Shown one piece after another: positions 5,401 to 63,892 of a DNA stretch of 64,000 nt. The DNA is taken from contig CAXIPT010000001.1 of NCBI GenBank assembly GCA_964030475.1, positions 17,520,514 to 17,584,513 of the forward strand, read 5' to 3'. A program made the translations under genes and the position numbers. How positions within the stretch are numbered: the first letter of the stretch is position 1; each line of letters opens with the position of its first letter. The notes under the pieces were generated by a model. That model was not told where the DNA came from. It searched no databases and saw only the letters and a list, made by a program, of their open reading frames with translations. Source of the stretch: Tethya wilhelma. Lineage: Eukaryota; Porifera; Demospongiae; Tethyida; Tethyidae.

Positions 5401-5654
5401 CTGATGAAGAAGGTTGTTCTGTTGGTGCAGTGCTACTCGGGTCACTGCTGGTTGCTAGGGTGACAGAGTTGGTCTCCATGGCAACAGCTGATGATGAAGG
5501 TAGGGTGGAACTGCAGAGGGAAAAGGTTTTAAACAAATGACTAATATATGATTGCCATATAAATGTATATATGGTCATATGATTTAATGCTCATTAATTT
5601 TGTGTGTATGTACAAAATACAAAATTATACTGTAGTTACAGGAATAGTTTGCAT

Positions 5655-13846: not shown

Positions 13847-13886
13847 AATTGGCGACGAGTAGTACGGGATTCGAGGTCGAACCGTC

Positions 13887-14537
13887 ATGGCTACCACCAC
13901 GATTGGACACATGCAGGAGTTTGATCCTGACAAAGAAACAGTGACTGAGTATTTAGAAAGGTTCCAAATGTTCGTGTCGGCTAACAGTATTGCGGACGGA
14001 AAGCTCGTCCCGACGCTTTTGACGGCATTGGGCCCGAAGCATTATTCGCTCCTACGAGGGCTGACGTCTCCCACCTTGCCCAAAGACAAGTCCTATGACG
14101 ACTTAGTCGCCCTGCTGAAGAAGCACTATGATCCTGAGCCTAACGTGATAGCCGAGCGGTTCAACTTTTATGCGAGAAGTCAGAAACCAGGCGAGTCAGT
14201 CGCCGATTTTACGGCAAGCTTGCGCCAATTGGCCAGCCGTTGTCAGTTCGGAGCAATTCTCTCGGAGGCGCTGAGAGACCGTCTGGTGTGTGGGCTACAG
14301 AACGAGAGCATTCAAAAGGCTCTTCTGACAAAGTCGGAGCTCACTCTAGACAAGGCTGTAGAGATAGCACATGGTATGGAAGCAGCTATTTTAAAATCAA
14401 GGGAGTTAAAAGGACAGAATGCCGGATCAGTTCTCGCCGTCAAGCCACCTGGGGAGCCGTGCGGACGTTGTGGTCGCAAGAATCACACCAAGAGTGAGTG
14501 CAAGTTCAAGGATGCTAAATGCACCCGCTTCGCATAA
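13887..14537 (+). pseudogene. Truncated gag of the LTR element
   Basis: Starts MATTTIGHMQEFDPD like the gag at 21708, and is nearly identical to it through the first zinc knuckle (CGRCGRKNHTKSEC). Homology stops at about 14522, just before the second knuckle, and the frame ends at TAA 14535-14537 in unrelated sequence. It keeps three residues that are deleted in the second gag after FVS, so the two copies are distinct elements. Capsid/nucleocapsid function is known for the family; this copy cannot make the full protein. Confidence 0.9.
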
Positions 14538-21667: not shown

Positions 21668-21707
21668 AATTGGCGACGAGTAGTACGGGATTCGAGGTCG
21701 AACCGTC

Positions 21708-22649
21708 ATGGCTACCACCACGATTGGACACATGCAGGAATTTGATCCTGACAAAGAAACAGTGACTGAGTATTTAGAAAGGTTCCAAATGTTCGTGTCG
21801 GTTGCGGACGGAAAGCTCGTCCAGACGCTTTTGACGGCATTGGGCCCGAAGCATTATTCGCTCCTACGAGGGTTGACGTCTCCCACTTTGCCCAAAGACA
21901 AGTCCTATGACGACTTAGTCGCCTTGCTGAAGAAGTACTACGATCCTGAGCCTAACGTGATAGCCGAGCGGTTCAACTTTTATGCGAGAAGTCAGAAACC
22001 AGGCGAGTCAGTCGCCGATTTTACGACAAGCTTGCGCCAATTGGCCAGCCGTTGTCAGTTCGGAGCATTTCTCTCGGAGACGCTGAGAGGCCGTCTGGTG
22101 TGTGGGCTACAGAACAAGAGCATTCAGAAGGCTCTTCTGACAAAGTCGGAGCTCACTCTAGACAAGGCTGTAGAGATAGCACATGGTATGGAAGCAGCTA
22201 TTTTAAAATCAAGGGAGTTAAAAGGACAGAATGCCGGATCAGTTCTCGCCGTCAAGCCACCCGGTGAGCCGTGCGGACGTTGTGGGCGCAAGAATCACAC
22301 CAAGAGTGAGTGCAAGTTCAAGGATGCAAAATGCCACAAGTGTGGTAAAGTAGGTCACATTGCACCTGTCTGTTATTCTAAGAAGCCTCTCAAGCGTGGG
22401 TCAAGCAGGAAAACAAAGTGGTTGGAGGTTACTACTGACTCCTCCTCTCTGTCTGGTAGTGGACGAGAAAAACCACTATTTGTGGTTAAGAATTACTCCT
22501 CTACACCTCCTTATGTGGTCGATGTACAGTTGAATATACACACTTTGACTATGGAAGTGGATACTGGGACAGCCGTATCCCTGGTTTTTGAGTCAGCAAT
22601 TTCCGAGTTGCTACAACGCACCAAGTTGACCCCCTTGAGGTGCTATTGA
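21708..22649 (+). CDS. Gag with start of protease, Ty3/gypsy element
   Basis: 313 codons. The capsid-like N-terminus MATTTIGHMQEFDPD is followed by two CCHC zinc knuckles (CGRCGRKNHTKSEC and CHKCGKVGHIAPVC, about residues 193-230) and a protease active site DTGTA (about residue 286). The frame ends 10 bases into the next open frame, inside what should be the protease domain. Because programmed shifts normally fall before the protease, this break is more likely a mutation, though a programmed shift is not excluded. Confidence 0.9.
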   Translation: MATTTIGHMQEFDPDKETVTEYLERFQMFVSVADGKLVQTLLTALGPKHYSLLRGLTSPTLPKDKSYDDLVALLKKYYDPEPNVIAERFNFYARSQKPGESVADFTTSLRQLASRCQFGAFLSETLRGRLVCGLQNKSIQKALLTKSELTLDKAVEIAHGMEAAILKSRELKGQNAGSVLAVKPPGEPCGRCGRKNHTKSECKFKDAKCHKCGKVGHIAPVCYSKKPLKRGSSRKTKWLEVTTDSSSLSGSGREKPLFVVKNYSSTPPYVVDVQLNIHTLTMEVDTGTAVSLVFESAISELLQRTKLTPLRCY

Positions 22650-24160
22650 AGACGTACACTGGTGAATCAATTCCAGTGGTAGGCAAGATGTCCGTCGAGG
22701 TCAGTTATGGGACCCAACGGCACAAGGAGATGGATTTGTTGGTGGTTCGAGGTCCTGGACCTAATCTCCTGGGACGTGATTGGCTGAGGGTTGTTCGGCT
22801 AGACTGGAGGAAGATTGGCCGAGTCGCGTCTGCTTCTGTCAGTGTAGAGGGCAAAGTGGCCGCTCTAAAGGACAAGTATCAGAAAGTATTTACTGAGGAA
22901 CTAGGGACAATAACTCCGTTCCAAGCTAGCCTCAATGTCACACCAGGAGCAATGCCAAAGTTCTTTAAGCCACGTCCTGTTCCGTTTTCACTAAAGGAGC
23001 AAGTTGGCCATGAGTTTGACCGACTAGAGCGTGAGGGAGTACTACAGAAGACTCATTACAGTGAGTGGGCAGCACCAGTTGTAGCTGTTCCTAAGAGTGA
23101 TGGTTGCATCTGGTTGTGCGGAGACTACAAGGTGACTGTGAATCCGGTCTTAGATGTGGACCAATATCCACTCCCAAAGCCGGAGGAGATATTTGTGACC
23201 CTTGCAGGGGGTAAGCACTTCTCAACCTTGGATCTCTCCCATGCATACAATCAGCTCCTATTGGATGAAGATTCTCGCAAGTACGTTACTATCAATACCC
23301 ACAAGGGATTGTACCAGTATACCAGGATGCCATTTGGAATTGCATCTGCACCTGCAGTTTTTCAACGTACGATGGATACCATCCTTCAAGGGATGGAAGG
23401 TGTTGCCTGGTACATTGATGATGTTATTATTACTGGTAGAACCGATGAGGAGCACTTGGAGCGACTAGAGGAAGTCCTTCGCAGATTCCAACGTCATGGA
23501 CTGCGTGTGAAGCTGGCAAAGTGCAAGTTCTTCAAGCCCAGTGTGGTCTTCCTGGGACATCGAATTGACGCTGAAGGTATTCACCCGACCGAAGACAAGC
23601 TAGAAGCTATTGTGAAGGCTCCAACACCAACCAATGTTCAAGAGTTGCGTTCATTTCTGGGGCTAATTAATTATTACGCCAAGTTTATTCCCAATGCTTC
23701 TACCATTCTGGCACCACTCAATTCACTCCTACGCAAAGATGCTGTCTGGAAGTGGTCTACCCAGTGTCAGCAAAGTTTTGCCACGGCCAAAGAGGCTTTG
23801 GTATCGTCTGAGGTGCTGATCCATTATGATCCCAAGCTGCCGATTCGTCTAGCAGGGGATGCTTCAGCATATGGAGTGGGAGCAGTGATTGCTCATGTGC
23901 TACCAGATGGCACAGAGAGGCCGATAGCATTTGCATCTCGATCCTTGACTGGTGCCGAGAGAAACTATGCTCAAGTGGAGAAGGAGGCCTTATCATTGAT
24001 ATTTGGTGTGAAACGATTCCATGCATATTTGTATGGACGGCAATTTACGATCGTGACAGATCACAAGCCATTGACCACCATCCTGGGACCCAAGAAGGGA
24101 ATTCCACCACTAGCAGCTGCAAGGTTACAGGGCTTGGATTCTATCTGCGTATCACTATGA
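22640..24160 (+). CDS. Pol part 1: protease remainder, reverse transcriptase, RNase H
   Basis: Begins in protease sequence (GESIPVVGK, LLGRDWL). Reverse transcriptase follows, with the finger/palm segments ending in the catalytic YIDD (near 23412-23423), then an RNase H segment (GDASAYGVGAV, VTDHKPL). The frame stops at 24158-24160 shortly after RNase H, while homologous sequence continues in another frame (ADALSRLP near 24200), so a frameshift near 24130 separates it from the integrase part. No joined reading is given. Confidence 0.9.
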   Translation: MLLKTYTGESIPVVGKMSVEVSYGTQRHKEMDLLVVRGPGPNLLGRDWLRVVRLDWRKIGRVASASVSVEGKVAALKDKYQKVFTEELGTITPFQASLNVTPGAMPKFFKPRPVPFSLKEQVGHEFDRLEREGVLQKTHYSEWAAPVVAVPKSDGCIWLCGDYKVTVNPVLDVDQYPLPKPEEIFVTLAGGKHFSTLDLSHAYNQLLLDEDSRKYVTINTHKGLYQYTRMPFGIASAPAVFQRTMDTILQGMEGVAWYIDDVIITGRTDEEHLERLEEVLRRFQRHGLRVKLAKCKFFKPSVVFLGHRIDAEGIHPTEDKLEAIVKAPTPTNVQELRSFLGLINYYAKFIPNASTILAPLNSLLRKDAVWKWSTQCQQSFATAKEALVSSEVLIHYDPKLPIRLAGDASAYGVGAVIAHVLPDGTERPIAFASRSLTGAERNYAQVEKEALSLIFGVKRFHAYLYGRQFTIVTDHKPLTTILGPKKGIPPLAAARLQGLDSICVSL

Positions 24161-25628
24161 CATTGTATTTCGACCGACTGGTGATCATGCTAATGCCGAT
24201 GCTCTTTCTCGTTTACCACTCAAAGCTGTTTCATCAGCAGTAGAGAGTTCAGAGGCCCGCATTTTTAATATCTCTCAGATGGAAGCCCTACCAGTGACTG
24301 TACCACAGTTGCGAGATGCTACCAGATCCGACCCCTTGCTCAGCAAGGTGTACCGTTTCACCCGAACAAGCTGGCCTAGTAAGGTCCCGCAATGTCTCCG
24401 ACCCTTTTATGACAAACGAACTGAGTTAACAGTGGAGGAAGGGTGCCTGTTACGAGGCATACGAGTGATCGTACCCAAGAAGTTGCAGGATCGATTGCTG
24501 GATGAGTTACACAGAGATCATCCAGGCATGACACGTATGAAGTCTGTGGCAAGGAGTTATTTTTGGTGGCCTGGATTGGACAGTGAAATTGAACGTCTTG
24601 CAAAGTCATGTCAGTCTTGTCAAGCTGTCAAGCAGAGTCCACCTACTGTACCACTGACACCATGGGTGTGGCCAACCAAACCATGGCAACGAGTCCACCT
24701 GGACTTTGCTGGTCCATTTCAGGGAGCAATGTTCCTAGTAGCCATTGATGCATATTCAAAGTGGCCAGAAGTCCGGATTATGTCATCTACTGTCGTGACT
24801 AAGACACTGGATGTTTTGAGAGAGTGGTTCGCCTCTCATGGTTTGCCCGAGCACATCGTCACGGACAATGGACCACAATTTATTGCAGAGGAATTCAAAG
24901 AGTTTGTGAAGAGGAATGGAGTAAAACATGTGAAAAGTGCTCCGTACCATCCTGCCTCTAATGGATTGGCCGAGAGGTTCATTCGATCCTTGAAGGAAAG
25001 TTTAAAGGCCTCTGCTAATGATGGTCGTTCATTGTCACAGCGTGTGTCGTCATTTTTGCTTTCCTATCGTACCACTGCACATGCTACCACGGGCACTCAG
25101 CCGTGTCAGTTGATGTTCAAGAGAGAGCTACGAACGAGGTTCTCTTTGTTAAATCCAGAACAAGAAAGAACTGCAACTGTAGCAAACAAGCAAGCACAAC
25201 AGAAATTGCAACATGATCGTCATGTTCGCTCTAGAAGTTGGGAAGTTGGTGATCGTGTATTTGTAAGGAACCATCGTCCTGGCCCAGACTGGATTCCAGG
25301 AACAATTGTGGAAGTACTGGGTCCAGTGACATATATGGTGGAGACAGATGAAGGTCAAAGTTGGAAGCGACATGCTGATCAGCTGAAAGATTGGGTATTA
25401 CCCACAGTTAGTTCTCCAGCAAAGACAAACATTGACTCACCTAGTTCTGGGGTACAGAGTGACTGTCCTGTGGACGTTGGTGACCTTTTAGAAGAGTCTG
25501 ATTCTTCTTCTCGAGCTAGTGAAGCCGGAACGGAATCTAACTCAGGAACTTCAGAGACAGGAAGACGTTATCCTTCTCGTGTGAGACATCCTCCCAACAG
25601 GTACTCTGAACAAGCTAGTTTATCATAA
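24161..25628 (+). CDS. Pol part 2: integrase
   Basis: Open from about 24145; the first Met is at 24279. It has the HHCC zinc motif (HRDHPG ... CQSCQ), the catalytic core with DFAGPF, TDNGPQF and the downstream Glu (ASNGLAERF), and a GPY/F-type module (LGPVTYMVE) near the end, with no chromodomain visible. It ends in a Ser/Glu-rich tail with TAA 25626-25628, 90 bp before the 3' LTR. It inserts cDNA in intact elements; here it is out of frame with the reverse transcriptase part. Confidence 0.9.
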
Positions 25629-42659: not shown

Positions 42660-43700
42660 ATGGATTTTGTCAAAGTAACTTCTCTTCTCTTCACAGCGGT
42701 GCTGCTCTTAGCTAGCAGTGCAACAGCAACTATGAAGTTCCAAGAAGTAATGGATGTCATTTCGGAAAAACGGGAAGAGTTGTCTAAGCACAAATTTTTT
42801 CAGTTTATAGCTGACAAAAGCATTCCCGCAAGCAAGCGCATCCAGTTTGTACCATACTGGACATATTTTGCACTCGCAGGACCAGATGTACTGGATAATT
42901 GGATGCGCATTCCGAATCCGACCACGGAACTGGAATACCGTGTGAATGCCTTTATTAATGAAGACTCCTTCCACTACAACTTGTTCTTACATGATATTGA
43001 AACTGTTCTTGGTTACACTCCTGAACGTTTCGGATCAGTTGGTGGTGTTTTTCGACACATCTGGGGAGACGATAGCAGAGCTGTGAGGATGCTTGTTTAC
43101 AGCTGGGCAACTGGTGTCAAAAAGAACAAAGATCCTATTGTAACATTAGCAAGCTTTGAAGCTGTAGAGGCTGGGCTTAAGGACTTTGTGGAAACTGTCT
43201 ATGGAGAGTTGTTTCTTGGAAAAGATGGCTATTCAGGATTGAAATACTTTGGACAGGCACATGTGGACTTAGAAATGAATCATACTGTCACAGGTTGGTT
43301 CAAGCCAGATGGGACACCATCAGACTTCAAACTTCCACTAACAGAATTTGATATCTCTGAAGATGCAAAGGCTGCCTCATTGGAAATGGTAGAGGATTTG
43401 TTCTTTTGGTGAGTATATTATATATTATATTGTATCATTATTTTGTAATACCAGGCTCATGTGACCTCTTGATATCTATCATCCTTGCATGGTTATAGCA
43501 TGCCATAACCTTCTCTGTCATTAATTTTTATGTGCAGGTTTCACCAAACTTACAATTCCCTCCATAACCTATGTTTAGTCGAGGATAGCATTAGTCCAGA
43601 AAAGTATAAGGTAGAAGGCTATCCTAGGATTCATGAGTTTCCAGTTAACCACCCAAACAGAAAGGTCAATGAAATGCAACGTTCAAAGGATGAACTCTAA
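42660..43700 (+). CDS. ER-lumenal heme-oxygenase-like diiron protein, paralogue 1
   Basis: Exons 42660-43408 and 43538-43700; 303 residues. Signal peptide (MDFVKVTSLLFTAVLLLASS), C-terminus KDEL. The body is predicted to be all-helical. Likely metal ligands are E101 with H105 or H111 (EDSFHYNLFLHD), E167 or E170 (ASFEAVEAG), and H201, E205 and H208 (HVDLEMNH). The last trio has the HxxxD/ExxH spacing of heme-oxygenase-like diiron oxidases and oxygenases (CADD, UndA, SznF type). The signal peptide plus KDEL predict a soluble ER-lumenal protein. An in-frame Met at 42615 exists, but the signal peptide and paralogues support 42660. Substrate unknown; the fold call is from motif spacing only. Confidence 0.65.
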
Positions 43701-46368
43701 TATTAACTTTAACAGAAAGTTTATGAATCTATATTATTTTGCTACGGTAACCTCATTTCTGTGAATATTTAATTTAGGACTCAAAGTTAATACTGTATAA
43801 TGATTACCATTATAATTTGTCAAACATGATACCGTTGTACAGAACTACCTCTCTATGTAACTTAGTACTGAGCAAGAAATGCCTCCGATCTACATAGCCA
43901 CTAGGGAATGCAGTGATCTAACAGGAAGAAGATTACGGTTAACTACAATCACAGTGACTGTGAATATATAGCAAAAGGCATTATGGTGACTTACTCTGAA
44001 CTTTACAGCAGTCACCTTTCTGCATGCATGTGCATGACTACATTCAAACTACAATCACAAGAAGAACATCAGCAGCAAGTCTACTATCATAATCACAGAA
44101 ATTCAATGTGATCATGCATAAAAAGCTCAAAATCATGTATCATGCATGACCCACTATATAGATGGTTGCAAATAATCTGGTTCACTCAGGACAAGCCAGT
44201 CACACTCACATTACATCAACAGTTAAATGAAGTGTTCCTACAAGCTACGATGCACCTATATATCTGCCACAATGTAGCTACTTAACTTAATCAAGTTATA
44301 GCAACAACAAGGTAAGACGAGCAATTTCGAACCGGTGGGGTAATTTCGATGTGTTTATTTCTTTGCTATAACTACTATTCAGATGTGACTTTTTTTCTAT
44401 CAACAGAACCTACCAGATCTGCAATTCAAGAAAAGCATATTCTGAACAGCATTCATAGTTCTGTAGAGAAATTAACTACGACATTGGAATTACCCCCGGG
44501 TTCAGAATTGCCCCGCTTCAATTTACCTTAATATTAATAACATAATCAATATACAGTCTATTTACAAATAAGGTGCATGTAGAGTCCTAGTTACAACCAA
44601 AATACAATAACATAATATATATACACAACAACTTGTAAATGAATATGCCATATAGCGGGTAAATTTGGAGGGCTTAAAGTCAGTTGGCAAATTCGTATTT
44701 AGCGTGTCATTGATTTGCGATTTTAAATTTGGCGATTTAATTCTGCACGCTGCATTGTTTATATGCACGTGCGTGCGTATAAAACTGTTTGGCGATTTGC
44801 ATAATAATTCGCCAATTTGCCAAATTTACCCGCTATACGGTATGGTTATAACCATATGATATGTTTACCATCAAAAGAATGATTATTATGTCTCAGAATG
44901 CTCATGTATAATCCCTCATAACGATGTGTGTACATTATAGTCTCGCGAGATAGCTATAGTTTAACTTTTTAGTGAGGTTATGCAATTTCCTGTGATTTGA
45001 GCTTGGTCTTCCAGTAGGATCAGTAGAATTCACGCAGGGCTACTGCGCCTACACCTGATGATTGCTTACAAACCAGTTGGTAACCAGGTTAGTATAATAA
45101 AAGTGTCATTTTCCATTGTTTCCAATCCTACTATCAGTCTAAGACTTCTTCAAAAGCACAATATTTAGTATTATTCTAGTTCATTACTTTGTAAATGTAG
45201 TACTGGATTTTCAAAATAAGGAAGGGCAAATATTTCAGAGGCGTCATCACTACATGCAATGTGCGTGCATTCTTTCTTAAGCATTTGTTTACAATCAGAA
45301 TTGTATAGAGGACAATACACTGCTTGCATGAGCATTCCATGTTAACACACTGGCACAGTAGTTCTTTTGTCACATAATAGACTCCCGTCAATTTTCTATA
45401 ATGATAATATTATAGTATATTGTATTAGCAAAACATTGCAGTGCATGACTACATTTTCAGCTAGAGGCTTATAGTGAAGTTCCACAGGAACTAAAAGCAG
45501 CCATGCAATGGCCTTTATAGAACAGATTGACTATCAATGTTTGTACAACAAGAGAGAGAGGATTAATTCCCTATACAGTGGAACCTTACTATATTCCAGC
45601 CAGGCTTAATTGGGACCAGCATGCATGAAGGAGTTCAAGAATGCAAGCTTAAGAATTGGAGATTATTATGATCAAAATGTCGCAATCAATCATGAGTATC
45701 AGTGCTGAAAATATTATCGTAGACACTTATGGTGTCGACTCAATTAATTTTAGTGTAGAAAAATGTATACCCGGTAGTGTAGAAAATGTACTTCTTTTGT
45801 TATTATTGATGGTAAACATGAGAAAGTAATTTAGATACAATTACAAGAGACAAAAGAGTACATGCATGCATAAAACTTTCACTGAACTAATTTTGTTGAC
45901 TGTCGGACAAATTAGTTCCTGGGTGCTTATAACATTATGGCATGGATGCATAGCAATACAAATTGCATGTTCAATGCCCATCAACACTGAATCATGCAGG
46001 TAAGTAGCCTAAGATTCTCTCGTTTACACCCAATTTTAAATTGCATTAGTCTCAGTCTTGGTCACATGACACTGAAAATGATTGAGTCAGTTATAGCTAT
46101 CCAGGGCCAAGCTCTTGTCAAGAGAAAACATTTATCTTTCAGTCAATAAATAACACACTAACAAAATGGGTGTAAATCGTGTGATCAGAAGCCGCTTTTA
46201 AAAACTAGAGCTGCCATTATAGTTGGAACAAACACACACACACACATACATACGTATATACAGACACACAAAACAACTACCATAACCCTATAGGTGTACA
46301 TGTGCACCAATTAAGGTACAAACCGATTTATGATGCCTAGCACTAATGCGCTCGGCAATAATTAAATA
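43701..46368. other. Intergenic between KDEL-protein paralogue 1 and its wrecked copy
   Basis: No gene recognised. It contains one MITE (44651-44837). From about 45740 onward it resembles 47290-47560 (shared GGTAAACATGA, AAAAGAGTACATG and GACAAATTA words in order), marking the upstream part of a local duplication. A short CA run lies at 46230-46245. Confidence 0.5.
44651..44837. mobile_element. 187-bp MITE with 18-bp TIRs
   Basis: Starts TATAGCGGGTAAATTTGG and ends CCAAATTTACCCGCTATA, a perfect inverted pair. The interior has more TTGGCGAAT-type words on both strands. It is non-coding. It shares the style and some words (ATATAGC, AAATTTGGC) with the element in PSMA3 intron 2. Confidence 0.75.
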
Positions 46369-46905
46369 GTGTGCATGCTATTGAGAGCAGAGCAAGCCAG
46401 AGCATTTCTGCTACATTTTAATTTCAGCCAGATTCATGAACACAATAATCATGAGTACTGTAAAAGCAGTTACTTCTTTTCAATGCTGCTGGATGTGCAG
46501 CAGCAATTACGTATACAGTTTTCAAGAAGTACATCATGTCATGTCATGTCCTTTTGTGAAACGAACAGAATTGTCTAAGCACAAGTTGTTTTTTTTGTTG
46601 TTGTTTTTTTGAGTTCCTGGTGGACAAAAGTACTTCCACAAGCAAGCACGTCCAATTTCTACCATATTGGACACATTTTGCACTTAATTGCTGCAGCATA
46701 TGATGTACTGGATATAAAGTTGCATATGGACATGCATTCCAAATCAACACATGGAACTGGAACAGTGCATATAAATGCCTTTGTTGATGTTATTCCATTA
46801 CAACCTGCATGCATGTTCTTACACGATATTGAAACTGTCCTTGGTTACACTCCTGAACATTTTGGATCCCTTGGACGGTTATTCTAAGACACATCTGGGA
46901 AAATG
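46369..46905 (+). pseudogene. Decayed copy of the KDEL diiron-like gene
   Basis: Aligns to 47490-47960. Leader and first-exon words recur (CATTTCTGCTACATTTT, ATCATGAGTACTGTAAAAG), and later the near-intact stretch FLHDIETVLGYTPEHFGSLG. It has several frameshifts, a lost region around the first motif (the EDSFH-type Glu/His are gone), and stops at TAA just after the block. Nothing after this point is recognisable as the rest of the gene. Confidence 0.85.
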
Positions 46906-47565
46906 ATAGCCTGAGAGCTGTTCATAAGAATGTTTACTTACAGCAGTCATCTTTCTGTGTGTGCATTGGCAATACAAGATAAAAAGCTAGACTATAAGTC
47001 TGCAGAAATTTAAGACTACTGCATTCAAACACTTTAGAAGGGGTCAATTGCTGTAGTATAATATATTCTGTGGTCCAAGTACATGTAACAGAGTGTGTAA
47101 GTGTGTGTGTTGTCATGTTAAGCAGTGGTCCTCCATAAAATTCTCACCAGCTAACACAAATAATTGATATTTGTTTTTGGAAAAGAGGTATACCAGAGTT
47201 TGCTTTGGAATGCATGACAGATCATAAATTTGCTGCCAAAGTATCAGTGATGAACTACACGAGTCATTTTTGTGACACTTATAGTGTCCATTAAATGTAA
47301 ATTAATGTATTTGTTCTGTTATCCATGAATGGTAAACATGAAGAAATAGCCATGCAATGCAATTACTAATAAGTCATTTGTTGCACATTCATTCAAAGGG
47401 ATAAAAGAGTACATGTAAACATGCATGCAATTTCAATGTTAACTGACAGACAAATTACGGTGACATTCTGTGTGTGTACGTGATCACTGTGATAGCTATT
47501 GAGACCAAAGCAAGGTAAAACATTTCTGCTACATTTTCAATTTGATTCATTAGCTAAAAAAGATC
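46906..47565. other. Upstream region of KDEL paralogue 2
   Basis: No gene. Sequence just after 46930 resembles the 3' flank of paralogue 1 near 44005 (CAGCAGTCAYCTTTCTG), consistent with duplication of a unit that includes flanks. Confidence 0.5.
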
Positions 47566-48562
47566 ATGAGTACTGTAAAAGGAATTTCTCTTCTCTTCAT
47601 GGCAGTGCTGCTTCTAACTGGAAGTGCAGCAGCAACTATGAAGTTTCAAGAAGTAATGGACGTCCTTTTGGAGAAACAGACAGAGTTGTCTAAGCACAGG
47701 TTTTTTGAGTTTCTGGCTGACAAAAGTATTCCTGCAAGCAAGCGCATCCGATTCCTACCATATTGGACATACTTTGCACTTGCTGCAGCAGATGTACTGG
47801 ATATTTGGATGCGCATTCCAAATCCGACCACAGAACTGGAGTACCGTGTAAATGCCTTTGTTAATGAAGACACATTCCATTATAACCTGTTCTTACACGA
47901 TATTGAAACTGTTCTTGGTTACACTCCTGAACGTTTTGGATCAGTTGGTGGTATTTTTCGACACATCTGGGGTGATGATAGCAGAGCAGTGAGGATGCTT
48001 ATTTACAGCTGGGCATCTGGTGTCAAAAAGAATAAAGATCCTATTGTAACATTAGCTAGCTTTGAAGCTCTAGAGGCTGGGCTTAAGGACTTCATAGAAA
48101 CTGTTTATGGAGAGTTGTTTCTTGCAAACGATGGCTATTCGGGATTAAAATACTTTGGACAGACACATGTGGACTTTGAAACAAATCATACTGTCACAGG
48201 TTGGTTCAGGCCGGATGGGACACCATCAGAGTTCAAACTTCCACTAACAGAATTTGAGATTTCTGAAGAAGCAAAGGCTGCTTCATTGGAGGTGGTAGAG
48301 GATATGTTTTTTTGGTGAGTTATATCTCTGTTTGGTAGTCACCGAAAGGTGGATTGAGTGCTTACCGTAGACTGATATTATTTTCTCTACCATTTTCAGG
48401 TTTCACCAAACTTACAATTCACTGCATAACCTTTGTTTAGTTGAAGATAGCATTAGTCCAGAAAAGTATAAGGTAGAAGGCTATCCTAGGATTCATGAGT
48501 TTCCAGCTGACCACCCAAACAGAAAAGTTAATGAAAAGGAACGTATGAAGGATGAACTTTAA
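47566..48562 (+). CDS. ER-lumenal heme-oxygenase-like diiron protein, paralogue 2
   Basis: Exons 47566-48314 and 48400-48562, with the same split codon (TG|G, Trp) as the other paralogues; 303 residues. The signal peptide region MSTVKGISLLFMAVLLLTGS leads into AAATMKFQEVMDV. All proposed ligands are kept: EDTFHYNLFLHD, ASFEALEAG and HVDFETNH. Very close to paralogue 1 throughout, and the C-terminus is again KDEL. Lies 1.4 kb upstream of a GT34-like glycosyltransferase on the same strand. Function as for paralogue 1: predicted metal-dependent oxidase or oxygenase, substrate unknown. Confidence 0.65.
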
Positions 48563-48900
48563 TAACTTCAATAATTATTATATAGGTCTTTGAAAAAAAC
48601 AGTCAGCTGCTGGTTGTGACTAAATATTCATTTGATAAATTTTGCTATCCAATAATTTTCAGAAATAACACCTAGGGCCACTAAATCATAATTATGCGCA
48701 TGCGTAAACACGTACACGTCACTGACATCCACGTGCGCGCGCGCACGTGCGTACCCGTACGTACGTACGTACGTAACGACGCGCATATGCCGCGCCGCGC
48801 CGGCGCCATGCATGCCCGCGCCGCGGCGCAAGGAAAAAAATCTATAACCCCATTAGCTAGATACGCACTGCACTGCTATTTACGACCATTACCACTTATA
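48563..48900. promoter_or_regulatory. Spacer with CpG-rich alternating purine-pyrimidine tract before GT34 gene
   Basis: Within it, 48690-48832 holds ACGTGCGCGCGCGCACGTGC, repeated GTAC/ACGT tetramers and GCCGCGCCGCGCCGGCGCC, all strongly self-complementary, in a region otherwise AT-rich. It could be a promoter island or a structure-forming element; no direct evidence for either. Confidence 0.4.
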
Positions 48901-50239
48901 ATGTTTTTTAAACTAGGAAGACTTACCTCAATCCGTAAAGCAGTTTTGATTCTCATATGTTGCTCATTACTCTTCGTATTGGTGGTAATCATCATTCGCC
49001 ACGACCTACTGAAAAATCTTCTGATGGGTGCAATTCGCGAGATTGGTCCAATATTTCGCGGCTCTTGTCTTCCTCGCGGTGAAGCTCCATCATCCAACAG
49101 AAGCATAGGAGTGGTTATACTAAACGGCAAAAAGGACGAGCTCTATCAGGTGAGTTGAGTTGTCTCTTTTTTTTAGCGCAATTAGTTTGGGGGAGCCCCT
49201 TGAGATTACGTTCATCATACAAGGGAAACCCCGGGCCCCCTTCTTCTCATTCTGCATGACATGTAATATAAATGTTGCACCATTATCTACAGTTGTATGC
49301 AACATGTTGCAAGGTGTTGCACGAAGTAGAAAGACTTTCAACTTTGTGCAACATGTTGCGTGCCACATTTGAAGATAATATTATTACATAATAAAGCCAA
49401 CATATATACACTGTGCAACATTGTTGTACCCAGATGTTGCATGGAAATATTGCATAGTGTAGTTGAGCTTAATGTGCTCAGTGGCCACTGTACAAAATAT
49501 GTACCTGTATACATCAATAATTATTACTGTAGATTAATTTTGTACATTCTAGCTTTCCAAGCCGAATCATGAACACTATTGCAACCTGCACGGCTACCCT
49601 CTCATTGATGGCTCTGGTACTTTCCTAGAAAGCAAGGGACTCCATGGAAACACACTCTCTTTCTTTTCCTGGGTGAAAATAGAGTATGTGTGTGCAATGA
49701 TGAAAGAGCACAAACACTTAGATTGGCTCTTTTGGATCGACACAGATGCTCTGTTCATGAATGATCACGTCAGTCTTCTCCAGCTGTTGGCTGGAGTTGA
49801 AGACACTGATTTGATCCTCATTGGAGCGGATGCTGAAGGCATCAATGCTGGAGGATTTTTAATTCGAAATAACCAAGCCGGTAGAGACTTTCAGTGTAAA
49901 GAAGTTCTTGGCCTAAAGGGGAAATATAATTACGAACAACAGGCTCTCTCCTCACTCTACAACAAGGCTGTCAGAGAGAGTGGTCAGGAGTGTATTGTAC
50001 CAGAGAAAGACGACCTTCATTTCCCATCTGGAGTGAAAGCCTGCTTGGACAAGAAAGCTCCCGGTATTCGAATGTTAAAACTCTGTGCTTTGGGATCATG
50101 GGGTGGACTGGAATGGAAGCGTGGACATGGGTTTTATTTTGAAGGATTCTACATGTATGGCGATTTCATCATTCACTTTCCAGGGGATAGAAGAGTGAAG
50201 GCTAGTCTCATGAAGCAGGCATTGAACTCGAGAATATGA
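48901..50239 (+). CDS. GT34-like Golgi type II glycosyltransferase, two exons
   Basis: Exons 48901-49149 and 49553-50239; 311 residues. A short cytosolic tail is followed by one signal-anchor helix (AVLILICCSLLFVLVVIII), then a stem and a lumenal domain starting GVVILNG. Family marks: NHEHYCNLHGYPL, the WVKIEYV helix, a DxD metal site in LFWIDTDALFMN (D146, D148), GINAGGFLIRNN and a late GDFIIHFPGD. This order matches galactosyl/xylosyl/mannosyltransferases of the GMA12/MNN10 (GT34) type, which are best known in fungi and plants. Sugar specificity is unknown. The upstream open frame to 48694 is a CpG-rich repeat, so 48901 is the better start. Confidence 0.75.
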
Positions 50240-50941
50240 TATCCTCAGTGTTGTACTCGATTCACTCAACCACAAGTATTTGTCACCATTGCAATAACAA
50301 TTAGGCAAGAATTTATCACAATTGATTATTTTGGATGTGACACCTAATATATGATGATTCACTGTTTGTAGTCTCACACTTGATTAGTTACCGTTTCCCA
50401 ATTTCGTACAAAACCCTCCTTAAATTTGGTCACTGGTGGTTCTCAAGGAAACACCTACAAGAACACTAGTACAGTTGGCATACATGATGTGTTATAGTGT
50501 ATACTAAGAGGAATATACCATGGTTATGGAGATCCCATCATCCCAAGTTAGGATTATCATTCTGTAGTATCAGCAGTTTGAATCATCCCTCACTGACTAT
50601 GAGGACATACCAAGGTAGTGAGAGAGACTGGGGGACCTGGTGAGTGGGGAAAAAGCAACAGAGTAGACAATATACAGGCTTCAGACTAAATATGGGGTGC
50701 ATGTAAATACCGACTCCTTTTGGGAGCACATCTCGTGATGCCAACAGGATAAACTTGCTGAGTCTGAAAGAAAACTTCTGTATAAGGCTTCTCGACCCAA
50801 GCCGGATCCGGAAGTATTTTAGATGCATGCGCGCTAAGTATAAAAGGCAACACTGAAAGTCAGAGATTCAAATTCACTTCAATCTCAATTGCCTGCAATC
50901 AACCAATTTTTAACTCCTTTGATTCAAATTCAATCATCAGA
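50240..50941. promoter_or_regulatory. Spacer with TATA box for KDEL paralogue 3
   Basis: No gene. TATAAAAG at 50839-50846 lies 96 nt before the ATG at 50942, giving a leader of about 65 nt if transcription starts about 30 nt after it. Confidence 0.5.
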
Positions 50942-51989
50942 ATGGACCTCAGAATTCAAGGTGTCCTGTTCACAACAGCACTATTGGTTATCTTTCAGCT
51001 GGCCACTCTTGGAAGAGCAGAGGCTGGCACCATCAAATTCCAAGAAGTGATGGATGTTATAGAGGAGAAGCGTCAGGAATTATCACAGCATAGATTCTTC
51101 AAGTTCTTAATGAATGACACCGTCCCTGCACATAAACGACTCCAATTCATTCCATATTGGTCCTATTTTCCAATGGACGCAAGCCATGCTCTGGAATACT
51201 GGATGAGAATACCAGACCCTCAAACAGAGTTAGAACACCGTGTGAATATTTTCATTGAAGAAGATGCATTCCATTACAATCTGTTTCTGCACGATGTTGA
51301 AAGTGTTGCTGGCTACTCACTCGACAACTTTGGAACGTACAGTGGTGTACTGCGTCATCTCTGGGGGGATGAAAGCAAGGCCGTTCGAATGCTAGTTTAT
51401 AGCTGGGCATATGGTGTGAAGAGGAGCAAAGATCCCCTTCTCACTTTAGCTAGTTTCGAGGCCGTGGAAGCAGGCTTGAAAGATTTCTTTGAGACCGTTT
51501 ACACAAATCTGTTCCTTGCTGAGAATGGCTTTCCTGATATGAAATATTTCGGTCAACTTCACATTGATCTTGAGAGAAATCACACAGTCACTGGTCGCTG
51601 GCTCAAGGAGAACATGCAAGCACATTTTCAACCTCTGGAAGAGTATGATATTTCTGAAGATTTGAAGACCATCATTCTGGAAGTAGTTGAAGATTTGTTT
51701 TATTGGTGAGTAAATGTACACAATCACATACAGTATTAACTATTAATAACAGTGGTGCCTTATTTTAATCACAACATGTAGGTTTCATCAGAGCTACGAT
51801 GCATTCTATAACATTTGCCAGACAGAAGACACTCTAAGTCCGGATAAATTTGTTGTTGATGGATATCCGTACATCCACGAGGGACTGCCATATCTTTATG
51901 AGTTTCCCCCTCAGCACCCAAACAGAGAGCCCACAAGTCACGATGCCACTGCTCACACAGCAGCTGTGGTATCCAAGGAAGAGCTCTGA
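50942..51989 (+). CDS. ER-lumenal heme-oxygenase-like diiron protein, paralogue 3 (diverged)
   Basis: Exons 50942-51705 and 51782-51989 with the same Trp-splitting intron; 323 residues. Signal peptide region MDLRIQGVLFTTALLVIFQL. The ligand motifs are kept (EDAFHYNLFLHD, ASFEAVEAG, HIDLERNH), although roughly a third of the other positions differ from paralogues 1 and 2. The second exon is longer, with an insertion around EGLPYLYEFPPQHPN. It ends KEEL, a recognised weaker variant of KDEL. Conservation of the metal-type residues across such divergence supports catalytic use. Confidence 0.65.
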
Positions 51990-59068: not shown

Positions 59069-62000
59069 NGAGAGAGAGAGAGAAAAGAGAATGAGTGTTT
59101 GATCGAGTACATCAAAATGTCTTACCTTGATGTGTTCCAAGAGTGCAGTAGCAATGTTCGTGTGCATGTCAATTCTCTTCTTCTTTTCCAGCAGCTCAGG
59201 GAGAGAGCTACAACAAGAACATGACCACAACACAAGCAATGAAATAAGCTAACAAACAAAAATATAACTAAGTATCTACAAAGACTATCAAGCTACAAAA
59301 TGAAACCCAAGGTGAGGTATGACTGGTTGGCTGACCTAATAGCTGAGGAGAGTTTTGCGGTGTTGTCGGTAAGAGCTCCAGATATGACGTCGGGGTCATC
59401 GTCCTCTGACACGCCCATCACTGTCTTGAGTCTCATTACCTCTTCTTCCGAGGCCTTGTACTCGTTCACCTCGGCTTGGACAGAGTCGGCCACCGTGGGG
59501 AAGGGACTAGAGAGAGAGAGAGGTTATGAGGCTAGTCTAGATTACATCAATACATGTATGTAGGGAGAGTCCAAAGGTTGTTATATAAGAGTAGAGCAGG
59601 CTAATGTACATGCATATTAATGTCACATGCAAAACACGCAAAACATGCCAAGAAAATGACAATATGTGTTATATGTGAATGAATATGGGTGGAAATTCAG
59701 AAATGCATACTTGACATAGAACAATAATCACTCCAGCTATGGTCTAAATGTAGATTGGGATACACAATGTCTAGAAAAGCTAATCCTACAATCAGTCACA
59801 CAATGCCCACAAACAGATGTACAAAATGAATAAAAAAAAGTTCATTTATCTTCTTCGTCACTATCATACATCAGTGTATCTCTCAACAAATTGTACCTAT
59901 CTTCTCCTGAAATGGGAAGTCTCTCACTTTCTAGTCTACTAGTATGTGGCTCAATATTGGGTCTCACATGTTCTTTATTCTTTGAACAAAACTGAGTGCA
60001 CAAATTTAGTCGAAGCAGAGCCATATACACATGGGCAATGACTATCACAGCAAACTGAACTAGGGCAACACTGATTGACATAATTGCAACAGCTATTTTT
60101 TCCCCTCCAATAATCTCGACAGCACAAAAGATTATGATGTTCAGAAAGAATAAATTTTCAAGAAGAGATATATACCACTTTTTGTAAGGATGAGGATGGC
60201 CCAACAGCACAGCAACAGTGATAATAATTACCACAAGGTTAACACTCTGTGAGACTATTGAGGTGGTTGCCAGTAACATGATGATAAACAGAAATCCTCG
60301 AACCAGCAGTAACAGTCCAATCCAGTACTGTTGACGATCTTTGAGGGGTCCATAATTTACATCGAAGAATGGTTTTAGTTTGTTGATCCAACGAAGACAC
60401 TTCCAGTTGGATTTTGCTCTCAACCAAGGAACTAGAAACAGTGTCAATGTGTAGGGTATCCACAAGAACAAAAGGGCTACAACTCCAGCACAAAACAATG
60501 CACCATGTTTTGATACAATATAATGCACATTTCCATCTAACCCCCACACAGCCAGTGGATACCGGCCATCAGGGAACTCTAAAAAGGCAACTTCAAATAT
60601 GTTAATAATAGTACGCATGAGTTTGGCATAGGACAATAGTATGAGAGTGGCTAAAACTGAGAGGGAATTGTTTCCAAACAATCTTGTCATCACTGATGAG
60701 TATCGACAGAGAACAATGATGACTCCAGCTATGGTCCAAATGTAGATGGGGAAAAGGAACTGCATCCATGTCTTCCAGTAGGCATCTAGGCCATTGAAGA
60801 AGCAAGCTTCAATGCCAAAGTCCAAGTTAATCCAGGCTATGAATACTCTCAGTATTTTTATAGCAAGAGACTTTTCTTCAGGAGAGAGAATGCTTCGATT
60901 AACCCAGATGATGTTAGCATAGAAGATGAGTCCATTTATTGTCCCATGGGTTACAGTAAGGTCCAACAGCTTAATGAACAGTACTAGAAGAAAACCAGCT
61001 AATAGGAAGAACACTAGTAGAGCAATTCCACTGTTTCTTTCACAAATTGAGCACCTTTGACTGCCAAGCACAAGACTATGACCTTTTTTGCAGCCTCCAC
61101 ATAATGTTCCAGAATGATTGAAGGCACACTGTTCACTGGAAGAGTTTAGTTCAATGCGCACAATTTCCTGCTTGCAATACTGATTGGGGCAAAATTTGTT
61201 CACAATCACACTAATATTTCCATCATCATCATACGAAGCATTGATCCAAACACTTCCACTTCGATCAAAGTAACCAGTTTGGTTCACAATAGAACAGTTA
61301 ATATTGTTTCTGGCTAAAACCGGGTCACACTGACACTTAGGATGAAAAAAAATAAACCCAGGTGGACAATGAAGAAGATGCACTTTAACATAAATTGGTG
61401 TTTGCAGCAAAGTAGATTGTATATAGCCTTCTTTCGTGAATGTATCGACAGCATCCTGCAAATCTTCCCGTAAAGTAGGTATAGAAGGTGGTGAATTGAG
61501 AAAAGGAGCAAGTACAAGTGTTTCTGATCTTCCAGTTTTGTTAGAGTAAACAGCAAACTCAATATTACTACATGTATTGCTTACTGTCTGTGCTGATTGA
61601 AGTTGCAAAATTGAAAAATTTAATGGATTTGGTGAATTAAAATGTGTGTAAATGGTTCCACTAGTTATACCAAAATCAGCTCCAACTAAAGCCACAGAAA
61701 TGCTAAATGTTTCTCCAGGAAAATGAAAAATAGTATCATTGACTATTAAATCTAAATCTGTGCAGTTCGGCACTCCTTTATCGCATTGACAGACTCTGGT
61801 GGGATCAGAGGATACTAGAGATAGGTTTGAACTACTTACAAACCGAAACACTTTCTCCCACACTCTGTAGCTATAGAAATTGTAATCAACTCTACACCGA
61901 CTTTTGAGAGAAACACCATAGATATGATCACCACCTTGGTTTGCCTTGTTGCCTATCATATTCACAGTAACATGTTCATTTTCTTGATCTATCTGATAAA

Positions 62001-63892
62001 AGCATTTTGGTGCATCTCTACGTCCTGGTACACTAAACAATAGGTCATACTTCACTAGAATCCCTCCTCCAACATGCCGAGCAGTATTGTTATAAAATGT
62101 GACATTGGTATTGTTAGTGAGGTGGACATGGGAATTGACTAACACCAGCCCACCACCTTCATATGCTGTATTGTTAGCGAAGTATACATCCTTTGAGAAG
62201 GAAACATAACCACTGTACATTCTCAGTCCTGTACCGATGTTGGACAAAAATGAACAGTTTGTAATGGTTACATTATTAGACAAAATAAGTACGCTTGTTG
62301 GAACATTTCCTTCATCAGTATTTTCAGAAAACATAGATTGACTGATTAAAATCTCAACACTAGTCTCATCACCTGAAGGATTGCTACTTATAAAAAGAGC
62401 AGAAGCAGATCTGAGGTCTGTAAAAGTACTTTTTATCTTGTTGTTTACGAATGTGCAGTCCTCAATGTGAATCTTCGAAGAAATTTTCGAAATACGCAGG
62501 TCTGACTGGTTCGGACTTAACCAGACAACCAATCCACCATCTTGGTTTTGTGAAAAAATGGTACCTTTGATAATTATTTCACCGTTATAAGTAGAGTTGT
62601 TGGTATACATATATGATGCTGCAATGTACACACCTGTACCTGGACATCGATAGAAATTTGAATTGGTGATACTCACTCCATGTTGGGCATCCAGCTTTGT
62701 ATATAATGTTACATCTTCACCATTATAGAATCGTTCACAATCAGTGAATATACTATGGTTTGTTGTGGCATTATCTAGTTCTAAGTAGGAAATACAGTAA
62801 TTACCACAGTAACCATCGGAGTAGTACAGTGATCCATTACATGAGTCAACTAGTATTGAATCCTTGATTACAGTTTCACGTTTACCACTGGAGCCACGGA
62901 CATTGACTGCTAAAAATGAGCTGTTAAATATTGATTTGGAAATATAAAATACCCCTTGTGAATCAACACTGACAGCAATGGACCTGATGAGCACCTCCTC
63001 TAAGTGAAGAAAAACGACTTGCAATTCGACCCTTTTGCAACCATCTGTTATCTGTGTTTTAATTATATCAAGTTTTATCATCATTATTTCAGTGACATTG
63101 TTAAAGGTAATGTTTGTACCACACTTGATTTCAACATGGGAGTCTTCACTCAAGTTTCCGAGCCACGACAGTCTACGTATATCAGTGAAGTTTAGAGCTT
63201 TTGTCAAATTGTGGTCTCCCTCTAGGAAGTACATGGTGACATTGTCTTGATTGGAAAAGTACTGAGATGAGTTGAGAGCATACTGGTCCAATTCAAAGCA
63301 AGGTTGATCAGGAGGACATTTTGGATTTGGAAGTACCGGAGTCACATAGTATTCAACAGCACTGGCAGGAAGGAGTGCACTTTGTTGGAAAATGACAATG
63401 AACAAGAGAAGTTTTGGCACATCTGAGATCATCATGCATGATTCAACTATATAACTTAATTTCAAATCCTATAAGTTCTTGACTAACTTTTTGGCAACTG
63501 AACTACATACTGTTGAATCACATGATGTTGTGTGCAGGGACACTATGATAATCACACTATCTTGAAATCCATTGTGGTATACAATACATACCCAGTATGT
63601 AGTATGTCACTATATGTCCCATAGACACAATATCCAAAGTTGCTGTACAATTTTGTTCATATGATTGAATGGATGATTACCACTATAATTTTCAATGAAC
63701 AACTAGCGAAAAATTAATATCAGTGCAGGAATGTGAAATTTTTATTAGAAGCGTCACCACTCACCTCCCCTTGTGACTCTGCCAGAACTTGTCGTCAATC
63801 TGAAGGTCGTAGGTCTTCTCAGGACCAACGGGAGAGACGCCAGACTCACCGGGTGGAGGGTTGGGCAGGGTCACCCGATTTAGTTCCACCCT
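56990..63892 (-). CDS. SCFD1: Sec1/Munc18-family protein SCFD1 (Sly1), 3' half, eleven exons in window
   Basis: Exons: 63892-63765, 59506-59336, 59207-59126, 59023-58964, 58829-58645, 58283-58133, 57869-57816, 57737-57685, 57576-57540, 57325-57185, 57022-56990; phases close to 364 C-terminal residues. The 5' half lies beyond 64000. Signatures: TYDLQIDDKFWQSHKG, SLPELLEKKKRIDMHTNIAT, DKSVLDIISDPSAGTAEDKM, NLPVTRIVDQLMDLK, DDYRYFDPKMLR, FVVGGGNYIEYQNL and a final LSQLGQ. Sly1 binds syntaxin-5-type SNAREs and is needed for ER-Golgi vesicle fusion. The first intron here (63764-59507, 4.3 kb) contains another gene on the same strand. Confidence 0.93.
59030..59083. repeat. (GA)n in SCFD1 intron with an N
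   Basis: On the SCFD1 coding strand it is (CT)n just before the acceptor of exon 59023-58964. An N at 59069 shows the assembly was uncertain here. Confidence 0.9.
59700..59770 (-). pseudogene. Relic of a second copy of the nested receptor-like gene
   Basis: The minus frame reads PIYI, a TAG stop, then TIAGVIIVLC, matching the membrane segment PIYIWTIAGVIIVLCR of the intact gene (about 60710-60760) with TGG changed to TAG. It lies 72 bp downstream of the intact gene's stop. Confidence 0.7.
59842..63465 (-). CDS. Large secreted beta-helix plus multi-pass membrane protein, single exon, nested in SCFD1 intron
   Basis: 1,207 residues without introns. The signal peptide (LLLFIVIFQQSALL region) is followed by CPPDQPCFELDQYALNSSQY, then about 450 residues of repeated short strands rich in Asn-X-Ser/Thr glycosylation sites (FVNNK, FANNTAYEGGGLVLVNSHVH, FYNNTARHVGGGILV). 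This looks like a right-handed parallel beta-helix. A Cys-rich stretch follows (CPPGFIFFHPKCQCD ... CGGCKKGHSLVLGSQRCSIC, about residues 725-830), then about eight or nine membrane helices (first ALLVFFLLAGFLLVLFI) and a short acidic tail. The layout suggests a cell-surface receptor or adhesion protein. I associate it with a large sponge family of unknown function. Lack of introns suggests origin by retrocopy or recent amplification. Confidence 0.75.
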   Translation of the reverse strand: MKLSYIVESCMMISDVPKLLLFIVIFQQSALLPASAVEYYVTPVLPNPKCPPDQPCFELDQYALNSSQYFSNQDNVTMYFLEGDHNLTKALNFTDIRRLSWLGNLSEDSHVEIKCGTNITFNNVTEIMMIKLDIIKTQITDGCKRVELQVVFLHLEEVLIRSIAVSVDSQGVFYISKSIFNSSFLAVNVRGSSGKRETVIKDSILVDSCNGSLYYSDGYCGNYCISYLELDNATTNHSIFTDCERFYNGEDVTLYTKLDAQHGVSITNSNFYRCPGTGVYIAASYMYTNNSTYNGEIIIKGTIFSQNQDGGLVVWLSPNQSDLRISKISSKIHIEDCTFVNNKIKSTFTDLRSASALFISSNPSGDETSVEILISQSMFSENTDEGNVPTSVLILSNNVTITNCSFLSNIGTGLRMYSGYVSFSKDVYFANNTAYEGGGLVLVNSHVHLTNNTNVTFYNNTARHVGGGILVKYDLLFSVPGRRDAPKCFYQIDQENEHVTVNMIGNKANQGGDHIYGVSLKSRCRVDYNFYSYRVWEKVFRFVSSSNLSLVSSDPTRVCQCDKGVPNCTDLDLIVNDTIFHFPGETFSISVALVGADFGITSGTIYTHFNSPNPLNFSILQLQSAQTVSNTCSNIEFAVYSNKTGRSETLVLAPFLNSPPSIPTLREDLQDAVDTFTKEGYIQSTLLQTPIYVKVHLLHCPPGFIFFHPKCQCDPVLARNNINCSIVNQTGYFDRSGSVWINASYDDDGNISVIVNKFCPNQYCKQEIVRIELNSSSEQCAFNHSGTLCGGCKKGHSLVLGSQRCSICERNSGIALLVFFLLAGFLLVLFIKLLDLTVTHGTINGLIFYANIIWVNRSILSPEEKSLAIKILRVFIAWINLDFGIEACFFNGLDAYWKTWMQFLFPIYIWTIAGVIIVLCRYSSVMTRLFGNNSLSVLATLILLSYAKLMRTIINIFEVAFLEFPDGRYPLAVWGLDGNVHYIVSKHGALFCAGVVALLFLWIPYTLTLFLVPWLRAKSNWKCLRWINKLKPFFDVNYGPLKDRQQYWIGLLLLVRGFLFIIMLLATTSIVSQSVNLVVIIITVAVLLGHPHPYKKWYISLLENLFFLNIIIFCAVEIIGGEKIAVAIMSISVALVQFAVIVIAHVYMALLRLNLCTQFCSKNKEHVRPNIEPHTSRLESERLPISGEDRYNLLRDTLMYDSDEEDK

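Follow-up and report, generated by a model that had tools for sequence, protein, structure and literature searches.

We analysed a 64,000-nucleotide stretch of the genome of the sponge Tethya wilhelma (17.52–17.58 Mb of its contig C1, GenBank CAXIPT010000001.1; hereafter the window), in which a first-pass annotation had described three intact genes for secreted proteins ending in KDEL, KDEL and KEEL. All three, here g1, g2 and g3, are present on the forward strand as open two-exon frames, spanning 42660–43700, 47566–48562 and 50942–51989. They share one plan: a long exon 1, encoding a hydrophobic N-terminus and a helical body, ends in ..FFW or ..FYW and is joined to a short exon 2 by a phase-2 GT-AG intron inside the tryptophan codon, with splice sites predicted from the genomic sequence alone. 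In g1, exon 1 (42660–43408) encodes the putative signal sequence and a diiron-type helical domain, and exon 2 (43538–43700), placed by its AG acceptor and translation, encodes the end of the last helix and a tail closing in KDEL (43686–43697) and a stop. The exons of g2 lie at 47566–48314 and 48400–48562 (KDEL at 48548–48559, then stop) and those of g3 at 50942–51705 and 51782–51989 (KEEL at 51975–51986, then stop); the introns measure 129, 85 and 76 bases in g1, g2 and g3. An additional in-frame ATG lies 15 codons 5' of the g1 start used here. g1 and g2 are 86% identical, g3 is 60% identical to g1 and 57% to g2, and g1 and g2 have diverged under purifying selection (ratio of nonsynonymous to synonymous substitution rates, dN/dS, 0.22).

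The tandem copies named in the first-pass annotation stand, and the count can be extended by two. A decayed exon 1 lies at 46451–46944 (+). It aligns by blastn to g2 exon 1 over 518 columns, 98 of them gap positions, at 70% identity, has an internal stop, and no exon 2 was found for it. A fourth intact gene, g4, lies on another contig (C3; 4557–5327 of locus L007, minus strand), with the same intron position and a KDEL end. The genome search (124.6 Mb, 204 contigs) ran exon by exon, so that these copy counts are lower bounds. On both sides g4 is flanked by frames of a repeated gene, by eye a probable multi-membrane transporter. Marker genes identify the assembly as that of an animal, most probably a siliceous sponge: the Wnt family gave nine matches in it and none in 14 control genomes, and a pattern built from a silicatein motif found one papain-family exon with the silicatein-type serine replacing cysteine (Peptidase_C1, 1e-11; no match for the reversed control pattern). 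Bacterial contamination as the source of the genes is ruled out by their introns and KDEL tails, the megabase contigs, and the Wnt and silicatein-type genes in the assembly.

The structurally characterised relative of these proteins is AetD, the nitrile synthase of the bacterium Aetokthonos hydrillicola (PDB 8TWW, 8JI3 and others). A single-sequence search of the PDB returned AetD as the sole match, at about 1e-13, and a profile search returned it over the whole domain at 1.8e-24, the next match, an unrelated one, scoring 0.21; the profile search gave no detectable sequence match to CADD, HrmI, BesC, PolF or UndA, which sets these enzymes apart from the sponge-type family. Models of g1 exon 1 and of a homologue, P0004, have the seven-helix heme-oxygenase-type fold that the first-pass annotation had proposed without naming AetD. 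In Foldseek all 21 matches at E ≤ 0.001 are, for both models, AetD chains, superposing with root-mean-square deviations of 2.1 over 209 residues (g1) and 1.8 over 221 (P0004), and weaker scores for UndA, CADD, HrmI, TenA and others follow. Sequence identity to AetD is only about 23–25%.

Family models contributed little. A comparison with PF14518 and TENA models, suggested in the first-pass annotation, gave no match for exon 1 of g1–g3 at E ≤ 10, a search in which HMMER filters drop most matches above about 0.1. Nor did Pfam and NCBIfam together yield a usable family match, with nothing for g3 in Pfam. There is no confident match to an unrelated known family: Pfam returned only Uteroglobin, for g1 (E 0.09) and g2 (E 0.077), both below the family threshold and taken as chance. 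We also rejected membership of heme oxygenase or TenA proper, for which there is no sequence match and for which fold scores are far below those of AetD.

The crystallographic iron ligands of AetD are D76, H79, E140, H172, E176 and H179; its Y167 holds the substrate carboxylate and its F44 stacks on the indole (PMC10654658, PMC11611611). By alignment the ligands pair with g1 D102 and H105 (codons within 42963–42974), E170 (43167–43169), and H201, E205 and H208, which together with Y196, the counterpart of Y167, lie within 43245–43283, all on the forward strand; F44 pairs with g1 F70. The last three ligands are the helix that the first-pass annotation had singled out as HxDxExNH. Another of its proposed sets, EDxFHYNLFLHD, is correct in D102 and H105 and not in its later histidine, H111, a position where just 63 rows have His among the 89 of an alignment comprising g1–g3 and 86 of the 88 homologue proteins described below (P0054 and P0087 left out; g4 not included). 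The exact six-ligand set occurs in 86 of the 87 rows with all six columns filled, Y196 in 88/88, and Phe at the F70 position in 82/88; E101, D112 and E167 are kept throughout (89/89). The family thus has the features by which heme-oxygenase-like diiron enzymes (HDOs) are recognised, the seven-helix fold in models and, by alignment, three histidines and three carboxylates on three core helices with HX3[D/E]X2H. It also has those of the AetD-like subfamily: a whole-domain match, D-x2-H on core helix 1, and a tyrosine five residues before the first histidine of HX3EX2H. On these grounds the proteins would be expected to bind metal. The last ligand, H208, is overlapped by an N-glycosylation sequon (N-H-T/S) at N207-H208-T209 of g1 (window 43278–43286), with Asn at 207 in 72/89 rows and Thr or Ser at the third position in 87/89.

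A search with the g1 protein found 88 homologous clusters at E ≤ 0.001, their sources labelled ena, lgn, jgi and ncbi and their taxonomic range judged from sequence features only. Thirty-five of the 88 stop precisely at the [YF]W edge of exon 1, which would follow if the splice donor creates a stop codon at that point, and three continue to a tail ending in KDEL or SDEL; such a set of homologues, with its shared exon edge and KDEL-type tails, is far beyond chance. Judged by equal length of their longest contigs, four of the clusters probably lie on one contig (488,554 bases), and P0001 and P0012 probably on another (2,946,932 bases). Since these two group in a quick tree with g1/g2 and with g3, the gene cluster itself is suggested to be present in a second species.

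The family carries the marks of the endoplasmic reticulum (ER). The signal peptide noted in the first-pass annotation is probably a general feature: by a hydrophobicity count, 76 of 79 complete eukaryotic-type members of at least 235 amino acids have a strongly hydrophobic N-terminus, against 6 of 43 relatives found in searches with AetD and a mixed profile. The core domain holds 0.30 cysteines per 100 residues in the eukaryotic type (n=77) and 1.15 in the bacterial set (n=65). Both features would fit the oxidising secretory pathway. A KDEL-type end occurs in all seven proteins traceable to the C-terminus: g1–g3, g4 (KDEL), P0004 (KDEL), P0020 (SDEL) and P0061 (KDEL). An N-terminal signal combined with a C-terminal KDEL-type motif is the signature of soluble ER residents retained by KDEL receptors, and the family's proteins probably reside in the ER lumen; AetD is bacterial and has neither signal sequence nor KDEL.

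The statement of the first-pass annotation that HDOs are mainly bacterial fits a review that describes over 10,000 members of the superfamily, in bacterial species (PMC13108848). The AetD query found 12 proteins, and the mixed profile 192, with proteins from bacterial metagenome-assembled genomes included among the 120 listed. Two peptide patterns, run against 84,980 bacterial and archaeal species at one genome per species, picked out 23 bacterial AetD-like loci, a lower bound, scattered over cyanobacteria, several groups of Proteobacteria, myxobacteria, planctomycetes, an actinobacterium and Bacteroidota. These proteins resemble the eukaryotic-type family: D102, H105, E170, Y196, H201, E205 and H208 are invariant in a 22-row mixed alignment, and the two profiles match at E 6.5e-32. 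They nevertheless form a separate clade. In a careful, unrooted tree of 66 chosen rows, a single branch with 100/100 support splits 27 eukaryotic-type from 39 bacterial proteins, AetD being on the bacterial side, so that the eukaryotic-type proteins do not group with AetD in preference to other AetD-like proteins. Three of the original 69 rows had been dropped, a long planctomycete row (L028) and two from Marinoscillum (L029, L030); in the quick tree the latter two stand next to the eukaryotic clade via long branches. An old transfer from bacteria is plausible, and we go no further than this because the tree is unrooted and the separating branch long.

Gene neighbourhoods offered one possible clue to chemistry. 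At the Serratia nevei locus (L015, 5992–8734) the genes after the AetD-like one encode a 2OG-Fe_Oxy_2 dioxygenase (PF10014) and a class-V aminotransferase. Together they may form a small cluster for amino acid modification, which is weakly in line with chemistry on free amino acids. Six other bacterial neighbourhoods gave no substrate hint (seven of the 23 loci viewed, 20 chosen neighbour frames scanned).

The g1–g3 family resembles AetD in fold, sequence and active site and departs from it in lineage, compartment and pocket. Residues for binding iron and the substrate head group appear to be kept, and the surroundings of the side chain changed: pocket residues I41, F48, M139 and S214 of AetD are replaced in most or all sponge-type rows compared, with Ala (35/89) or Gly (22/89) at the F48 position, where Phe is retained in 32/89, and Val or Ile at the M139 position in 70/89. 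This combination leads us to favour an oxidase that uses O2 on a free amino acid, probably an aromatic one. We think it somewhat more likely than not that g1–g3 represent an ER-lumenal branch of AetD-like HDOs in eukaryotes, here probably in a sponge, whose members probably oxidise a free aromatic amino acid.

Several observations weigh against this reading. The six-ligand set is broken by P0033, with Lys at E170, and by g4, with Glu at the D102 position. In the pocket, the AetD I41 position is Trp in 69/88 rows and Phe, Leu or Met in the rest, and the S214 position, from which AetD contacts the 7-bromine, is Phe in all six sequences with an alignable exon 2 (g1–g4, P0004 and P0020, aligned at the W213 edge). 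The same Phe is reported for SktA, which converts 5-bromo-tryptophan to 5-bromoskatole and is reported to share the AetD ligand set (PMC13108848); SktA differs in having T139 and T142, where sponge-type rows usually have the Val or Ile noted above and Gly (76/89). The review stresses that AetD and SktA, given almost the same substrate, yield different outcomes (PMC13108848). AetD also lies across a long branch from the eukaryotic-type clade, among bacterial proteins, and its reaction is therefore not transferable to the sponge-type proteins. Finally, PF04820 (Trp_halogenase) had no match in the sponge genome and matches in 5 of 14 control genomes, which tells against a brominated substrate made by the sponge through that family. 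Bromination is not needed, because AetD also takes unbrominated tryptophan, more weakly, at about 35% conversion (PMC10654658).

If the favoured reading holds, the protein would enter the ER and be held there by KDEL receptors, and the amine and carboxylate of a free, probably aromatic amino acid would coordinate Fe1 in the manner of AetD, where such binding accompanies O2 activation (PMC11611611). O2 would then give a peroxo-diiron oxidant attacking near the beta-carbon, and this attack would start an oxidative rearrangement or Calpha-Cbeta cleavage. For AetD, the proposed route begins with abstraction of a beta-carbon hydrogen and reaches the nitrile via an aziridine, an aldehyde arising as a shunt product, a scheme that its own authors call "far from established" (PMC11611611). 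The product in the sponge might be a small specialised metabolite, for which nitrile, aldehyde and skatole are the known precedents. Given their altered pockets, the tandem copies may not all use one substrate or give one product.

The ER lumen is also where secretory proteins are modified, and the substrate could instead be a secreted peptide or protein, for instance one whose N-terminal residue chelates Fe1 by amine and carbonyl; g1–g3 would then be protein-modifying oxygenases of the ER, comparable to the prolyl and lysyl hydroxylases. Modification of ribosomal peptides is among the roles of HDOs (PMC13108848). We regard a peptide substrate as unlikely, though worth keeping in view: AetD, the closest enzyme, takes up a free amino acid into a hydrophobic pocket that is closed off inside its helical bundle (PMC10654658), and the head-group tyrosine is kept in every row with that column filled. 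A small molecule unlike the substrate of AetD would fit the changed pocket residues, and enzymes of the same fold use fatty acids (UndA) or aliphatic amino acids (PolF, BesC, HrmI) (PMC13108848). Such a substrate, be it a fatty acid, an aliphatic amino acid or another small molecule, seems to us distinctly improbable, as both sequence and fold favour AetD well above other HDOs and the indole-stacking residue is predominantly Phe. That the proteins are non-catalytic iron- or O2-binding proteins of the ER, for storage or sensing, would suit the lability of HDO metal sites (PMC13108848) and the lack of a recognised redox partner among the window's long reading frames, some of which were scanned, but it is very improbable given the invariance of E101, D112, E167 and the tyrosine besides the ligands.

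HDOs are described as bacterial enzymes with unusual chemistry whose substrates are mostly amino acids and fatty acids; about a dozen have been characterised (PMC13108848, a 2026 review). We found no description of a eukaryotic or sponge AetD-like or HDO family in the open literature, where coverage of subscription papers and bioRxiv was thin, and passages of PMC12210266, PMC12614342, PMC3766881 and PMC12615548 do not describe one. An ER branch of HDOs in animals would, if real, be a new place for this chemistry, and not a small one, the g1 query having found 88 clusters against 12 proteins for AetD. More speculatively, a diiron enzyme of bacterial type that rearranges amino acids may have been adapted by sponges and tandemly expanded into an ER-lumenal family, with which they make nitriles, aldehydes or other cleaved products of aromatic amino acids in their own cells. 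We consider this unlikely, and the missing Trp_halogenase match lowers its odds slightly. Were it true, some aromatic chemistry now attributed to symbionts would be encoded by the animal and kept in its secretory pathway. For one nitrile-converting enzyme of a sponge, its authors call it unknown whether the enzyme stems from the sponge or from a symbiont (PMC3766881). An animal ER branch would make one form of that question testable, namely which partner makes a given aromatic metabolite, since its domains lend themselves to expression and to assays with Fe(II), O2 and amino acids.

The remainder of the window holds genes outside the AetD-like family. Between g2 and g3, 48685–50239 (+) contains pieces of what is probably a type II membrane glycosyltransferase; its frame at 49553–50239 matches Glyco_transf_34 at 1.1e-19. 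A 1208-amino-acid protein at 59842–63468 (−) has no Pfam match at E ≤ 0.001; by eye it consists of extracellular repeats and, after them, several membrane segments. A chromatin-remodelling-type protein with WSD and PHD domains is encoded at 3011–5590 (−). Also by eye, 21684–25628 (+) carries gag/pol-like frames of a long terminal repeat (LTR) retrotransposon, with a second, partial gag-like copy at 13863–14537 (+).

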